DNA of 64,000 bases, taken from NCBI RefSeq assembly GCF_014230055.1, contig NZ_JACHVA010000127.1:62001-126000 (forward strand), in the 5' to 3' direction. The DNA comes from Puniceicoccus vermicola (lineage in GTDB: Bacteria; Verrucomicrobiota; Verrucomicrobiia; Opitutales; Puniceicoccaceae). Each line of letters begins with the position of its first letter. Positions within the stretch are counted from its first letter, which is position 1. The notes beneath the pieces were generated by a model. That model was not told where the DNA came from. It saw only the letters and a program-made list of their open reading frames with translations, and searched no databases. A program made the translations under genes and the position numbers. Positions 3,483 to 40,614 of the stretch are shown one piece after another.

Positions 3483-4124
3483 TCATTCCTTTTCGGCAAG
3501 CTGTTTCACATCCCATCCCTCACGAAGGCGGGGATAGTGAACGCCAGCCCCCGGTTCGACGAATAATCCCGAACTGATGGCAAAGCCCTGAAGTCCGAGT
3601 TCGCGGATTCGCCCGAGATCGGTGGCTTCGATTCCTCCAATGGCATAGGCGGGAAGTCCATCCAGCACGGCAACGATTTCCCGCCACTGCTCTTCCGTGA
3701 GGGTCGGTGCCAGATTCTTCTTGGTTCGAGTGAATCGGAAGGGTCCGACTCCCACGTAGTCCAACGCCCGGGACTCGACCGCCTGTTTTGCATCTGCCAC
3801 CGAGTTGACCGTACCGCCAATCAGAAAATCCGCACCGAGCAAAGCCCTTGCTTCGTTCCAGGGCATGTCCAGTTTTCCGAGATGAACCCCGTCTGCCCCG
3901 ACTCGCTGAGCCACCTCAGCCCGATCATTGAGGATCAACTTCACTCCCCTTTTCCGGCAGATTTCGAGACAACGTTTTGCCGTTTTCTCGACCTCATCAT
4001 CCGTGGCCGACTTCATCCGCAACTGGATCCAATGCGCCCCTGCTTCACAGAGAGCCGACACTTGCTCTTCATGCGAAAGCGAGATTCCGTCGAGGGTCAG
4101 GCACTGAATCGAGACCTCCTTCAT
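3483..4124 (-). CDS. thiE: Thiamin-phosphate synthase ThiE
   Basis: Joins HMP-PP and thiazole phosphate to thiamin phosphate. The 213-aa protein has the ThiE barrel signatures WIQLRMKS (residues about 32-39), [18 protein letters not shown], the [10 protein letters not shown] phosphate region, [14 protein letters not shown] and a [10 protein letters not shown] loop. The ATG at 4124 overlaps the upstream stop as ATGA, which fixes the start over the longer open frame to 4178. HLG rather than HLGQ after ADGV and the intact diphosphate-binding GPF..T.TK stretch make this the more canonical of the two ThiE-family genes in the operon. Confidence 0.9.
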
Positions 4125-4723
4125 GCGAACACCCTCCGGACAGATTCGAAGGCTTTCACCGGATCGTCCGCAGTCCAAAGACAGCCGTGCAAAACCACTC
4201 CGGAAAATCCCAATTCACAGGCTCGCACCGCGGATGCCGCATCAATACCGCCCAAGGCCATCAAAGAATCCGAGGAAAACTCGGCGGTAATCTCCGCCCA
4301 ACCGCTTTCCGAGATCTCCGATTGATATCCCACCTTCGAAATCGAGGGAAAGACCGGGCTCAAAAAGATATAGTCCCAATCGGTCGGTGAATTTTTGAGC
4401 CGATCACGCCCATGCGCGGATCGGCTCAAGGTCCTCCCCGAACCTCGCTGAACCTGCAATTCCTCCGAACGATGCGCCAAATCATCTCGATCCTTCCAAT
4501 GGTATCCCCCGAGGCCATACGAATCGACCAAACCATACTCCTGATGCAGAACTACGGACGACCGCACATCATCGGGCAACCGGTCGAGAAAATCCGAGGC
4601 CGTTTCCACCGAATCCTGCGGGCGGCGGAGATGATAGGCCACCAACCCCACATCGAGTAGAGACTGGATCGTCTCGATCTCTCCGGGGATTTCCGATTCG
4701 GGAGATATGGCGTAGATCTTCAT
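4121..4723 (-). CDS. Second ThiE/TenI-superfamily protein (thiamin-phosphate synthase-like)
   Basis: A 200-aa ThiE/TenI-fold protein directly upstream of thiE, overlapping it by 4 nt. Its start at MKIYAISPESE is followed by VAYHLRRPQ, VVLHQEYGLV, DYIFLSPVFPSISKVGY and the MALGGIDAASA phosphate loop. The SPVF.SISK.GY block is typical of a TMP-synthase branch common in Bacteroidetes-type thiamin operons. The HMP-PP metal-binding NDR motif of ThiE is not apparent (HQE replaces it). It could be a second TMP synthase, a thiazole tautomerase (TenI-like), or a partner subunit; the sequence alone does not decide. An ATG about 60 nt upstream is possible but lacks conserved sequence. Confidence 0.75.
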   Translation of the reverse strand: MKIYAISPESEIPGEIETIQSLLDVGLVAYHLRRPQDSVETASDFLDRLPDDVRSSVVLHQEYGLVDSYGLGGYHWKDRDDLAHRSEELQVQRGSGRTLSRSAHGRDRLKNSPTDWDYIFLSPVFPSISKVGYQSEISESGWAEITAEFSSDSLMALGGIDAASAVRACELGFSGVVLHGCLWTADDPVKAFESVRRVFA

Positions 4724-4847
4724 CGGGGCCCGAGACAGCGGAAAGATAACGGGATGCCCAATTGATGGGGAAGAATCCCACATTCACCAAACAAACCGTA
4801 CCGTGCAGCTTCAGCAAACGGCTGCGAAGGAGCAGATACTATCACAA

Positions 4848-8436: not shown

Positions 8437-8469
8437 TTGACTATTATCGTATATCCACGATATACGATA
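8437..8469 (+). promoter_or_regulatory. Promoter with perfect 25-bp palindromic operator in front of arsR-like gene
   Basis: A TTGACT -35 hexamer (8437-8442) is followed by an inverted repeat with 11-bp perfect arms (TATCGTATATC / GATATACGATA) around the spacer CAC at 8445-8469. A -10-like TATACG lies at 8461-8466 inside the right arm, 18 bp from the -35. The palindrome thus fills the promoter core, 13 bp before the ATG of the ArsR gene; autorepression by that protein is the simplest reading. Confidence 0.75.
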
Positions 8470-8482
8470 TTAAATATTGATT

Positions 8483-8836
8483 ATGGTCGCCTCCAAAACA
8501 GATCTTTTCACGGAAGAACAATCTTCGCTTGCGGCTTTTGCTGGAGCTCTCGCTCATCCCGCTCGCATTGCCATCATTGGCTTCCTTCAGGAGAATGGAG
8601 AAGCTTCGAGTGGGATGATCGTCAATGCCATGCCTCTCGCGCAGGCAACCGTCTCCCAACACCTCACCGCCCTTCGCAAGGCAGGACTCCTGAATCAAAG
8701 GCCCTGCGGCAAGAAGATCTGCTACAGCATCAATTGCGAGGAGGTCCTCCGCTTCTGCCACAGTTTCCAATGCACTCTGGGCACCGCCGGGGAACCTCCA
8801 CCCCCGCGTGAATCCCATTGCTGCGAAGACGAGTAA
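8483..8836 (+). CDS. ArsR-family winged-helix repressor, Cys-rich C-terminus
   Basis: A 117-aa metalloregulator-type repressor. The helix-turn-helix is visible as FAGALAHPARIAIIGFL followed by ATVSQHLTALRKAGLL (residues about 55-70). Seven cysteines (about 75, 80, 85, 92, 97, 113, 114) cluster in the C-terminal half, including KKICYSINCEE and a terminal HCC. The next gene is a persulfide/CoA-disulfide-type fusion, so a sulfane-sulfur sensor of the SqrR/BigR kind is as likely as a metal sensor. The ATG at 8483 is preferred over the in-frame TTG at 8477. It ends 59 nt before the fusion gene, probably in one operon. Confidence 0.87.
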   Translation: MVASKTDLFTEEQSSLAAFAGALAHPARIAIIGFLQENGEASSGMIVNAMPLAQATVSQHLTALRKAGLLNQRPCGKKICYSINCEEVLRFCHSFQCTLGTAGEPPPPRESHCCEDE

Positions 8837-8895
8837 GTAGAACCAGTCCCTTCGTCCCGCCATTCATTGAAACCATCGAAACGATTCCAACCTTC

Positions 8896-11361
8896 ATGAA
8901 CTCTTCATCCACTCCCAATCGCATTCTTATCGTCGGAGGCGTCGCAGGCGGCGCCTCTGCAGCTGCACGGCTTCGTCGACTCGACGAAAAGGCCGAGATC
9001 ACCGTTTTGGAGAGAGGCCCCGATGTCTCCTTCGCCAATTGCGGACTCCCTTATCATATTGGAGGAGAAATCACTGACCGCCAGAAGCTGTCCGTCCAAA
9101 CACCGGATTCACTCCGCAATCAACTCGCAATTGACGTCAGAGCCAAAACCGAGGTTGTGTCCATTGATCGGGAAAAGAAAACGGTGGTAACCCGCAATGT
9201 GGACTCCGGGACAACCGAAGAACTGGCCTACGACAAGCTCATCCTTTCCCCCGGAGCCTCCCCGCTGCGCCCACCGCTACCGGGAATCGATCTCGGCGGG
9301 ATCTACACCCTCCGCAACCTCCAGGATATGGACCGCATCAAGGATGCCGCCAATTCTGCGAACCGGGTTCTGGTCATTGGGGCGGGCTTCATTGGACTCG
9401 AAATGGCCGAACAGCTGGTCCAACTCGGCAAAGAGGTCCAACTCGTCGAGCTCGTAGAACAGGTCCTCCCGCAAATGGACCCCGAAATGACCCGGGCCGT
9501 CGAACAAGAACTTCTCGACCATGGAGTCGACCTGATTCTCGGAGACGGAATCGACGGTTTTTCCTCCGCCGAGAACCAAGGGATTCGCGCCTCTCTCAAG
9601 TCCGGACGAAACCTGGAAGCGGACATGGTCATCCTTTCCATCGGGGTTCGCCCCGAGAACCGCCTCGCTCAAGAGGCTGGCCTCGAGCTCGGAGCCCGCG
9701 GACACATCAAGGCCAACGGCCACATGCAGACTTCAGACCCCGACATCTATGCAGTTGGGGACGCCAGCGAAACCATGGATCCCATTCTCGGCGGTCCGAC
9801 CGCCATCGCCCTCGGAGGACCGGCCAACCGACAAGGTCGTGTTGCCGCCGACCACATCGTGTACGGGGACGAAGCCCGACCCTATCCAGGTTCCATTGGG
9901 ACTTCGATCGTTCGCGTCTTCGATGTCGCTGCGGGGGTTACCGGACACACCGAAAAACGGCTGCAGCAGATGGGGATCGACTACGAGAAAACCATCGTCA
10001 CCGACTACAATCACGCCAGTTATTTCCCCGGCGCAACCCATCTCACTCTCAAGATTCTCTGGGACAAGTCGACAGGCCGTTTGCTCGGAGGACAGGCCAA
10101 TGGCATCGAAGGCGTGGACAAACGCCTCGATGTCCTCGCTACCGCCATCAAAGGCCAACTGACCATTGAGGACTTGGAGCATCTCGAGCTCGCCTACGCA
10201 CCACCGTTCGGAGCGGCCAAGGACCCTCTGAATACGGCGGGGTTTTCCGCCAACAACATTCGCAGCGGCAGAGTGAAGCCGGTCTACGAGTTACCCGATC
10301 CCAACAGCCAGCAGTTGATCGACGTGCGGCCAGCTGAAATGGCCCAGCTGAAACCGATTCCTGGAGCGATCAACATTCCCTTCCCCTCCCTGCGAAGCCA
10401 GTCGGACTCGCTGGACCGCTCAAAACCGGTGACGACAGTGTGCGCTCTCGGTAAGATGAGCTACTTCGCCGCTCGAATTCTCGCCCAAAATGGCTTCGAG
10501 GTGTCCGCCCATGTCGGTGGCTGGAAGGTAGCTGCCACGCCAAGTGCACCTGAAAAGACAACTCCCATGGAAAACTCCTCCAAAGCGACTCCCGAAACGG
10601 AATCTCCATCCCCCGAAGTGAAAACCGCCTCGCTCGATTGCACCGGCATGGCCTGCCCGGGTCCCATTCTCCGAGTCCGCGAAACCGCGGCCACCCTCGC
10701 ACCGGGCCAAGAACTCGAGATTTCAGCCTCCGACCCCGGCTTCATGAACGACCTCCCCGCCTTCTGCAAAGCCAACGGCTACGAATTTATCGGGGCCGAC
10801 AAATCCAAAGGAATTGTCACCGGACGCCTTCGCAAACCCATGGACGGGCCGGCAGACTCCCAACCGAATTCCGGGCAGACTCCCCCCGCAAAGGGATCCA
10901 CCATCGTCGTCTTCTCGGGAGAACTCGACCGCGCCATGGCATCTTTCATCATCGCCAATGGCGCCGTTGCCATGGGAGGCAAAGCGACTCTCTTTTTCAC
11001 CTTCTGGGGACTCAATATCCTCCGAAAGGACAAAGGAGCCCAAGTTCCCGACAAAACCCTCATGGACAAAGTCTTTGGCTGGATGCTCCCCCGGGGACCG
11101 AAAAAGCTCCCACTATCCAAAATGCACATGGCCGGTCTGGGAACCTGGATGATGAAAGATCGCATGGCCTCGAAAAAACTCCCCAACCTCCCCGGACTCA
11201 TGCAAGAGGCTCAACGCGCCGGCGTCCGCCTCGTCGCCTGCACCATGTCGATGGAGGCAATGGGAATTCGTGAAGAAGAGCTTATCGACGGAGTAGAGCT
11301 CGGCGGCGTCGCCGAATTCCTCGGAGCAGCCAGCGAAACGAACGCGAATTTGTTTATCTAA
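8896..11361 (+). CDS. Four-domain fusion: CoA-disulfide reductase-type flavoprotein, rhodanese, TusA-like, DsrE-like
   Basis: An 821-aa sulfur-relay protein. Residues about 9-440 form a pyridine nucleotide-disulfide oxidoreductase with FAD loop [16 protein letters not shown], the single redox Cys of the CoA-disulfide reductase/persulfide reductase branch (FANCGLPYH, Cys 49), the NAD loop VIGAGFIGLEMAE and TSDPDIYAVGDA. A rhodanese domain follows (LIDVRPAE ... VCALGKMSYFA), then a TusA/SirA domain with LDCTGMACPGPIL (CPxP), and a C-terminal DsrE2-like domain (FSGELDRAMASFIIANGAVA, later VACTMSMEAMG with a candidate acceptor Cys). Likely substrate: CoA-persulfide, polysulfide or related sulfane sulfur. 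ATG 8896 is chosen because the Rossmann loop follows directly. Confidence 0.9.
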   Translation: MNSSSTPNRILIVGGVAGGASAAARLRRLDEKAEITVLERGPDVSFANCGLPYHIGGEITDRQKLSVQTPDSLRNQLAIDVRAKTEVVSIDREKKTVVTRNVDSGTTEELAYDKLILSPGASPLRPPLPGIDLGGIYTLRNLQDMDRIKDAANSANRVLVIGAGFIGLEMAEQLVQLGKEVQLVELVEQVLPQMDPEMTRAVEQELLDHGVDLILGDGIDGFSSAENQGIRASLKSGRNLEADMVILSIGVRPENRLAQEAGLELGARGHIKANGHMQTSDPDIYAVGDASETMDPILGGPTAIALGGPANRQGRVAADHIVYGDEARPYPGSIGTSIVRVFDVAAGVTGHTEKRLQQMGIDYEKTIVTDYNHASYFPGATHLTLKILWDKSTGRLLGGQANGIEGVDKRLDVLATAIKGQLTIEDLEHLELAYAPPFGAAKDPLNTAGFSANNIRSGRVKPVYELPDPNSQQLIDVRPAEMAQLKPIPGAINIPFPSLRSQSDSLDRSKPVTTVCALGKMSYFAARILAQNGFEVSAHVGGWKVAATPSAPEKTTPMENSSKATPETESPSPEVKTASLDCTGMACPGPILRVRETAATLAPGQELEISASDPGFMNDLPAFCKANGYEFIGADKSKGIVTGRLRKPMDGPADSQPNSGQTPPAKGSTIVVFSGELDRAMASFIIANGAVAMGGKATLFFTFWGLNILRKDKGAQVPDKTLMDKVFGWMLPRGPKKLPLSKMHMAGLGTWMMKDRMASKKLPNLPGLMQEAQRAGVRLVACTMSMEAMGIREEELIDGVELGGVAEFLGAASETNANLFI

Positions 11362-11430: not shown

Positions 11431-12390
11431 TTAACCGAACAAATCCTTCCGAAGTCCCGTGCCCACCGAAAGGCCCTGCCAGTCCGCGCCAGACATCGGA
11501 TGCGAACGGCGCGGTCGAATCCCGCGGTCTTTCATCGTTTTCAGGTGCTCCTCGACAAATTTTTCCGAACCCAAAACCATCCCGTCGGTAAAATACCGCA
11601 CCCGACACCGCAAAATCACGGCCAAAGGCAATTTTCCTTTCTCCTCCTGAAGAACCCGCAGCGCCTCCTCACGGCTAATCGGCTCCTTCCCGTCCTTCTC
11701 TGCAGCCCCTGAGCGATACAAAGTCTGCCGATAGCCAGCCAGATCCTTGTCAACCACGCCCAAACCAGCCCGCGCGATCCGACTCCCCGCAAGCGCCTCT
11801 GCATATCCACAGAAGCGGTAATCTTTAGGATCAGACACCAACCCCGCCCGCACTGCATTCAAGTCAATATAAGCCGCCACAGTCCGCAGGGCCCAACGAT
11901 CCCCCTCGACCAGCACACTCTTAAAACGCTCCGACCAAACCGGCCCAAACCGCTCCCGAGACCGGTTGAACCAAAGCGAGAAACGTTGCTTCAGCGTCTT
12001 CATCAAGGTGGAAATATCATGCATCCGCCGCAGCAAATCTTTCCGCAACTCCCTACCCTCCAAAGAGTCCCGCTTCAACTCTCCAGCCAAAACCTCAGCC
12101 CGTAGAGGCTGCCAGGGAGTCGGCTTCGGATAAAGCCTGCGATACCGACGCACAATCTCCTCATCCGAGACAACAGTCCCTTCCGAGGGAACCTCCACCA
12201 AGATATGAAAGTGATTCTTCATCACCGCATAAGTCACCACCCGAACCCCGGAAAAGTCACATACCTGCCAAATCATCTTCCGCAAAACCTCTCTCTCCCG
12301 CGCTCCAAACAAAGCCTCCCCGTTCACAGTCCGGCTCATCAGATGGTAGTAAGCGGTTTGGCCCAAAACTTTTTTCCGTATTCTGCCCAT
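11431..12390 (-). CDS. REP-associated tyrosine transposase (RAYT, Y1/IS200-like domain)
   Basis: A 319-aa protein with an IS200/IS605 Y1-transposase fold: N-terminal GQTAYYHLMSRTVNG, the HUH metal site MKNHFHILVEVP (residues about 57-68), RFGPVWSERFKSV, and the catalytic-Tyr helix VAAYIDLNAVRAGLV. RAYTs are single-copy, domesticated-looking relatives of IS200 that act on REP hairpins. No IS ends or partner tnpB lie beside it, as expected for a RAYT. Several REP-like repeat families occur elsewhere in the window (24.7, 40.0-40.6 kb) with a GTAG tetranucleotide next to each hairpin. Start: ATG 12390, giving MGRIRKK; an ATG at 12396 is equally possible. Confidence 0.85.
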   Translation of the reverse strand: MGRIRKKVLGQTAYYHLMSRTVNGEALFGAREREVLRKMIWQVCDFSGVRVVTYAVMKNHFHILVEVPSEGTVVSDEEIVRRYRRLYPKPTPWQPLRAEVLAGELKRDSLEGRELRKDLLRRMHDISTLMKTLKQRFSLWFNRSRERFGPVWSERFKSVLVEGDRWALRTVAAYIDLNAVRAGLVSDPKDYRFCGYAEALAGSRIARAGLGVVDKDLAGYRQTLYRSGAAEKDGKEPISREEALRVLQEEKGKLPLAVILRCRVRYFTDGMVLGSEKFVEEHLKTMKDRGIRPRRSHPMSGADWQGLSVGTGLRKDLFG

Positions 12391-12419
12391 AGCCACAGAC
12401 CACCCAAAACCACCCGGCT

Positions 12420-32302: not shown

Positions 32303-32650
32303 TCCGTTCTCGCATGCCTTTCCAGGCATGAGCTTGTCGAATGCAGTCGTGCGATTCCCACATCACTCCAATCTCCACATCTCGGCGACGCCATTCCCTC
32401 CTCGAAATGCGGAAACCAGAAACCCGCCACCACCGAATGACTAAAGTCAATCGGCAACTTTTCGTTCTCGCATGACTTTCCAAGCATGGCTTGTCGAATG
32501 CAGTCGTGCGATTCCCGTATCACCGCAATCTCCACATCTCGGCGACGCCATTCCCTCCTCGAAATGCGGAAACCAGAAACCCGCCTCCACCGAATGACTA
32601 AAGTCAATCGGCAACTTTTCGTTCTCGCATGACTTTAGTCGTGCGATTCC
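32303..32650. repeat. Dispersed intergenic repeat, family A, three units
   Basis: Three related units (about 150 bp, the third shorter) follow one another. Shared pieces are cgttctcgcatgac, cagtcgtgcgattcc, ccctcctcgaaatgcgg and cgaatgactaaagtcaatcg. Each unit boundary makes a hairpin from GACTAAAGTC and the next unit's GACTTTAGTC. The same family recurs at 37.33-37.63 kb. Apparent ORFs here are translations of the repeat. Confidence 0.85.
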
Positions 32651-39950: not shown

Positions 39951-40614
39951 TGGAGCGGAATGGCGATAGCCATTTCGAAGAATTTCCGACGCCCTAAAAA
40001 CCCACCGTAGAAACGGCTCTCGCCGTTCCTCTCCACGAGGAGAGATTGCATTTCCGACATTCCGGAGCAGAAGCGCGAGAGCGATTTCGAGTAGATGCCC
40101 GAGAAGATTGGATTCATCGGAGGGGCCCGTAGAAACGGCTCTCGCCGTTCCTCTCCATGAGGAGAGATCGCATTTCCGGAATTCCGGAGCGGAAGCGCGA
40201 GAGCGATTTCGAGTAGATGCCCGAGAAGATTGGATTCATCGGAGGGGCCCGTAGAAATGGCTCTCGCCGTTCCTCTCCTTGGGGAGAGATCGCATTTCCG
40301 ACATTCCGGAGCGGAAGCGCGAGAGCGATTTCGAATAGGTGTCCGAGAAGATTGGATTTAGCGGAGGGTCCGTAGAAACGGCTCTCGCCGTTTCTCTCCA
40401 CGGGGAGAGATCGTCTTTCCGACATTCCGGAGCGGAAGCGCGAAAGCGATTTCGAGTAGATGTCCGAGAATATCGGATTTAGCGGAGGTTCCGTAGAAAC
40501 GGCTCTCGCCGTTCCTCTCCATGGGGAGAGACCGTCTTACCGACATTCCGGAGCGGAATGACGATAGCCATTTCGAAAAGCAACGGCATCGCAATCCCGT
40601 TCGCCCGAGATCGA
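39951..40614. repeat. Five-copy 121/122-bp tandem repeat with REP-like hairpins
   Basis: The block ccgtagaaacggctctcg starts at 40005, 40127, 40249, 40370 and 40491, a period of 121-122 bp. Each unit holds GTAG followed by the hairpin AAACGGC-TCTC-GCCGTT, a CTCTCC/GGAGAG hairpin, and GGAG followed by CGGAAGCGCGAGAGCG. The edges (39953 and about 40550) carry GGAG plus AATGGC-GATA-GCCATT hairpins. The minus-strand ORFs across it repeat ERNGESRFYG and are artefacts of the repeat. Confidence 0.9.

Follow-up and report, generated by a model that had tools for sequence, protein, structure and literature searches.

Two proteins in which a coenzyme A (CoA)-disulfide reductase (CoADR), a rhodanese, a TusA and a DsrE domain are fused have been described, and a literature search gave no further account of such a four-domain fusion. 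For Pcar_0429 of Pelobacter carbinolicus a persulfide relay was proposed in 2012, with NADH-driven sulfide release as its last step (PMC3543383, accessible part of the account). BF638R_0572 of Bacteroides fragilis is repressed about 50-fold by the adjacent MarR-type regulator BmoR, and its loss in a bmoR mutant background makes the cells more sensitive to diamide (PMC6158253). In the related CoA-persulfide reductase (CoAPR) of E. faecalis both catalytic cysteines are required, and a swinging CoA arm moves the persulfide from the rhodanese to the flavin site (PMC9405070). Here we describe a four-domain enzyme of this type, encoded directly downstream of an ArsR-family repressor, in a 64,000-nucleotide stretch of Puniceicoccus vermicola (contig NZ_JACHVA010000127.1, positions 62,001 to 126,000; hereafter the window, to which the coordinates refer; Table 1). 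The gene order, the domain content, the conserved catalytic cysteines and the conserved operator are firm at the level of sequence, and the fusion enzyme probably disposes of reactive sulfur. That the two genes form a self-regulated operon for the clearance of sulfane sulfur (persulfide) has, in our estimate, an even chance of being correct, with the inducer proposed only.

The association of regulator and enzyme recurs across genomes. A profile search for the ArsR subtype and a search for the enzyme were run on 383 Verrucomicrobiota genomes and the resulting coordinates compared. The subtype was found in 16 genomes, and in 14 of these arsR lies directly upstream of a CoADR-rhodanese gene. Eleven of the partner genes encode all four domains and three end after the rhodanese (543-545 residues), so that the regulator tracks the reductase-rhodanese core; a definition of the regulated unit by TusA and DsrE2, which was also considered, is weakened by these three two-domain relatives with the same ArsR subtype. 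Across 16 loci the distances between the ArsR proteins correlate with those between the fusions (r 0.85, a value reached by 0 of 5000 permutations), which fits co-inheritance of the pair. The gap of 59 nt between arsR and the fusion gene is similarly short in relatives, a scan found no terminator-like site within it, and the flanking genes vary between genomes. Among the 24 loci L043-L066, a same-strand ArsR gene stands directly upstream in 15 (of the window type in five) and a divergent one in a single case. Homologous fusions of more distant Verrucomicrobiota often lie directly downstream of another ArsR type. At L039/L077 a protein encoded one gene away carries Cys in alpha2 and alpha5, and its best match is the BigR model, below the cut-off.

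Upstream of arsR lies an inverted repeat (8445-8469, TATCGTATATC-CAC-GATATACGATA), which an earlier note on this DNA had called an exact 25-bp palindrome. Both 11-bp arms are indeed perfect, yet the CAC between them lacks self-complementarity, and the element is therefore an interrupted inverted repeat. It overlaps the spacer and the -10 region of a TTGACT-17 nt-ATATAC pair, and TTGAC or TTGA is found 5' of the operator in most relatives. The proposal that the repeat be sought in relatives proved fruitful: it recurs upstream of the same ArsR subtype at 16 loci, where the 23-bp site has a mean of 1.52 bits/position (flanks: 0.32 and 0.45), and at one of these aligned loci (L040) the match is degenerate. 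With at most three mismatches, the motif has a single match in the window (0 in 100 shuffles) and a single site in the 5.2-Mb genome; a search for a wider regulon in this genome thus gave no second operator at that threshold. In 52 related genomes the sites adjoin the same arsR gene, with two weak single-orientation matches elsewhere. A different inverted repeat (for example TTTAATATTCGACATATTAAA) stands just 5' of the start codon of ArsR relatives at L100-L102, upstream of two-domain CoADR-rhodanese genes, and also at L103, where the ArsR gene is not beside a CoADR-rhodanese gene; the operator has thus diverged within the ArsR subfamily.

The 821-residue fusion described in the earlier note is borne out, since it is read in a single frame and all its domains score above the Pfam gathering thresholds: Pyr_redox_2 (PF07992, residues 9-292), Pyr_redox_dim (PF02852, 339-439), Rhodanese (PF00581, 466-544), TusA (580-647) and DrsE_2 (667-820). 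The reductase, dimerisation and rhodanese domains and both catalytic cysteines, the hallmarks of a CoADR-RHD or CoA-persulfide reductase, are all present, and each of 23 homologues retains Cys49, Cys516, Cys587 and Cys782 without exception. The closest solved structures for residues 8-549 are 3icr (B. anthracis CoADR-RHD, E 1e-150), the 3nta family and 8a56 (E. faecalis CoAPR), with all of which the reductase-rhodanese core was aligned end to end; for the DsrE2 part it is 3pnx (E 2e-31). The AlphaFold2 model has a mean pLDDT of 79, with residues 553-574 and 651-664 below 50, and these predicted disordered linkers are consistent with tethered carrier domains. Five residues after Cys516 (C+5) the window protein has Met, and its clade Met or Thr, at a position that is mostly Arg in distant homologues. 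That loop Arg has been linked to thiosulfate use in a yeast rhodanese (title of PMC8533005), so that the replacement predicts poor thiosulfate activity.

The same domain order, also suggested as something to look for, is frequent in relatives: about 98 matches (a hand count of the listed rows) cover all four domains in the 383 genomes. The four-domain enzyme type is common and had already been described. Of the refuting condition named in the earlier note, a widespread fusion with an assigned function, the first half thus holds; the published accounts found give, in their accessible parts, no measured enzyme activity for the four-domain form.

The ArsR protein exceeds the Pfam cut-offs for HTH_20/HTH_5 and that of NCBIfam NF033788 (69.8 bits against 55), and its AlphaFold2 monomer has a winged-helix fold with a mean pLDDT of 85; an alternative TTG start at 8477 would yield 119 residues. 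It is Cys-rich, as had been claimed, with cysteines at positions 75, 80, 85, 92, 97, 113 and 114. In an alignment with 16 close and five more distant homologues, Cys92 of alpha5 is present in all 16 close and four of the distant proteins, and Cys43, near the start of alpha3, in 11 and five, respectively, the window ArsR having Ser at that position. Cys97 (alpha5; 13/16) and Cys85 (12/16) occur in none of the distant homologues, the wing pair Cys75/Cys80 is found in eight of the close ones, and the C-terminal CC (113-114) in two, the other being L034. Cys113-114 was rejected as a sensor because it is not conserved. What stands of the self-contained sulfur unit envisaged earlier is the local arsR-fusion pair, the conserved operator and a catalytic Cys in each of the four domains; the sulfur trigger read from the Cys-rich tail does not, given the rarity of the tail pair and an incomplete alpha2 plus alpha5 sensor pair.

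The seven cysteines with the C-terminal CC, the match at the level of the NCBIfam ArsR/SmtB metalloregulator subfamily and Foldseek matches that include CzrA and As(III) repressors would also suit a metal- or arsenite-responsive ArsR that has a thiol reductase in its operon by chance. We regard this as very improbable. The NCBIfam match is generic and extends to non-metal sensors, no metal or arsenic genes adjoin, and the subtype neighbours the CoADR-rhodanese gene in nearly all genomes that have it (14/16). The CXC metal signature of alpha3 is missing (the window ArsR reads EASSGMIV there), for which reason a metal trigger is not indicated. Cys92/Cys97 and the tail pair are present as alternative metal-site positions, of which the latter is not conserved.

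For a persulfide-clearing operon the following cycle can be proposed. At rest, an ArsR dimer would occupy 8445-8469 across the promoter and keep both genes repressed. A rise in persulfides or polysulfides, or linked thiol-oxidising stress, would modify the cysteines around Cys92 in alpha5 (candidate partners: Cys85, Cys97 and Cys75/80), upon which the repressor would leave the DNA and the fusion would be produced. Sulfane sulfur would pass via DsrE2 Cys782 and TusA Cys587, on their flexible linkers, to rhodanese Cys516 and on to bound CoA as CoA-persulfide, which Cys49/FAD with NAD(P)H would convert to CoA and H2S, as in E. faecalis CoAPR; with the persulfide cleared, repression would return. 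The sequence is compatible with carriers that feed the reductase as well as with a rhodanese that feeds the carriers. A further, doubtful suggestion is that the ArsR represents a so far uncharacterised type of thiol sensor without an alpha2 Cys. The invariant Cys92 would have a lineage-dependent partner, and the signal to which the repressor is tuned would be CoA-persulfide or the carrier domains of its own enzyme in their persulfidated form. Within such a class the partner of Cys92 might, again tentatively, be Cys43 in most homologues and, in the window protein, cysteines of the wing or others of alpha5.

Several observations weigh against persulfide clearance. The persulfide sensors SqrR, BigR and HlyU form cluster 4 of a sequence similarity network and have their Cys pair in alpha2 and alpha5 (PMC10509353); in alignments, HlyU, YgaV and BigR carry the sensing Cys at the alpha2 position. 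The corresponding position 33 lacks Cys in all 21 aligned homologues of the window ArsR, so the pair is absent and the protein is not a canonical persulfide sensor; its score against the BigR model is 39.9, the cut-off being 155 bits. The structural model is a monomer, with Cys-Cys distances across the dimer beyond its scope. The -10 element is weak, and the TTGACT-ATATAC pair is absent from the list of an automatic consensus promoter scan. No neighbouring sulfide-oxidation genes are conserved among the relatives examined and no YeeE/YedE match was found in the own genome; only at L009 does the upstream region encode a protein that, judged from its translation, is similar to sulfur transporters of the YeeE/YedE type. 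The three partners without TusA-DsrE indicate that the regulatory unit can do without the relay tail, and the sole genetics, in B. fragilis, measured sensitivity to diamide and not to persulfide.

The main rival is a general thiol/disulfide-stress operon. Disulfide or peroxide stress would be sensed by a Cys pair of the ArsR, and the enzyme would act chiefly on CoA disulfide and so maintain CoA in its reduced form, the carrier domains being secondary. The diamide-sensitive B. fragilis double mutant without the homologue (PMC6158253) and the three relatives that retain CoADR-rhodanese only agree with it, as do two adjacent cysteines close to where alpha3 begins in six of the 16 ArsRs, which resemble the H2O2-sensing pair of RexT (PMC8960804). 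The window ArsR, however, lacks a RexT-like pair because it has Ser42-Ser43. Moreover, the rhodanese is retained in all homologues examined, the TusA and DsrE2 cysteines are invariant wherever these domains occur, and the TIGR03385 score of 455.8 bits falls short of the equivalog cut-off of 578.8 that strictly defines a CoA-disulfide reductase. We consider a thiol-stress operon rather unlikely and retain persulfide clearance as the preferred reading.

A relay that supplies sulfur for biosynthesis, for instance for tRNA thiolation or for the thiamine genes close by, could be suspected as well, since the fusion contains the only TusA-family match in its genome and the DNA 2-6 kb upstream carries thiG, thiC and two ThiE-like genes. 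Such a role is hardly probable: the thi genes are encoded on the other strand, no thi genes were recognised next to the fusion in relatives (neighbours judged by translations only), repressor control is ill-suited to a constant need, and the gene is patchy, in that a second genome of the genus and most of those in the order lack it. The two ThiE-like (TMP-TENI) genes are adjacent (3483-4783, minus strand) and neighbour thiG and thiC. Of the two, the upstream gene (4121-4783) has only a weak score (34 bits, cut-off 27) and is perhaps a TenI-like paralogue that has diverged.

From its distribution, the two-gene unit has likely been transferred horizontally. The fusion is 76% identical to that of a same-genus genome, 76% to that of another family of the order and about 70% to those of genomes listed only as the same phylum (family f48), and identities are out of step with kinship at L034, L035 and L043-L047. 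In Aeromonadales/Succinivibrio (L011, L033, L023) an ArsR-like gene is divergent from a CoADR-rhodanese gene, which has four domains in L011; the ArsR-like protein of L011 (427-777) has a Cys-rich tail, CQCNDC...CKDNC. Directly downstream of the window fusion lies a convergent IS200-like (Y1_Tnp) transposase-related gene (321 aa, 11431-12396), and at L008 a similar-looking gene (1061-2059) is found about 0.5 kb upstream of arsR. Elsewhere the window contains a 122-bp unit in 4.7 tandem copies with 91% matches (40005-40576) and 2.1 copies of a 157-bp unit (32305-32636).

Table 1. Features of the arsR-fusion unit in the window
Feature	Coordinates	Strand	Basis
Promoter-like TTGACT (8437-8442), 17 nt, ATATAC (8460-8465)	8437..8465	+	inferred, by eye
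Putative ArsR operator: inverted repeat, 11-bp arms, 3-nt spacer	8445..8469	.	sequence and conservation
ArsR-family repressor gene, 117 aa, stop 8834-8836	8483..8836	+	Pfam HTH_20/HTH_5, NCBIfam NF033788, AlphaFold2
Four-domain fusion gene, 821 aa, ATG 8896	8896..11361	+	one frame, Pfam
CoADR domain, aa 1-452, redox Cys49 in SFANCGLPY	8896..10251	+	TIGR03385, PDB 3icr
Rhodanese domain, aa 466-545, Cys516 in CALGKMSY	10291..10530	+	PF00581
TusA domain, aa 580-647, Cys587 in CPGP	10633..10836	+	PF01206
DsrE2 domain, aa 667-820, Cys782 in VACTMSMEAMG	10894..11355	+	PF13686, PDB 3pnx

Should the ArsR indeed respond to sulfane sulfur, its sensing of persulfide would use a cysteine arrangement unlike that of SqrR/BigR, and the multidomain enzyme of about a quarter of the sampled Verrucomicrobiota genomes would have a function. 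The single known site per genome and the adjoining enzyme would then offer a clean two-component test for a repressor that reads CoA-persulfide. If it does not, the locus would be an ordinary self-regulated thiol-stress operon.

Among known regulators, SqrR, BigR, HlyU and YgaV share the ArsR fold, and Cys97 in alpha5 of the window protein is the aligned counterpart of the alpha5 Cys in HlyU, whereas the alpha2 Cys is lacking and the invariant Cys is a different one (Cys92). RexT, the H2O2-sensing ArsR of Nostoc, is approached by some homologues, but not by the window protein, in having adjacent cysteines close to where alpha3 begins; RexT controls thioredoxin. On the side of the enzyme, CoAPR, B. 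anthracis CoADR-RHD and the Npsr-type protein of Shewanella loihica have the same reductase-rhodanese core without the TusA-DsrE2 tail. C42 and C508 of CoAPR correspond to C49 and C516 of the fusion, whereas R513, five residues after the catalytic Cys, is replaced by Met/Thr in the clade of the window, and CoAPR is controlled by CstR of the CsoR family. CstA of Staphylococcus aureus fuses DsrE, TusA and rhodanese functions under a persulfide-responsive repressor (in the summary given by PMC9918477), but it has no flavin reductase and its CstR is CsoR-type. Pcar_0429 has the same four domains in the same order, judged by Pfam domains and the published description; it was proposed as a terminal elemental-sulfur reductase, and the accessible part of that account describes no ArsR or operator (PMC3543383). 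Finally, BF638R_0572 shares all four Pfam domains, whose positions almost coincide with those in the fusion (14-440, 462-540, 589-657 and 671-825), and its repressor is likewise encoded alongside and binds the shared promoter region. BmoR, in contrast, is of the MarR type, its gene lies downstream of the oxidoreductase gene, the inverted repeats there contain TTTCC, and the phenotype concerns thiol/disulfide balance. Judged from sequence, the ArsR subtype and its operator would thus be a new way of controlling this enzyme, and a variant of the theme of a repressor encoded beside a persulfide reductase.
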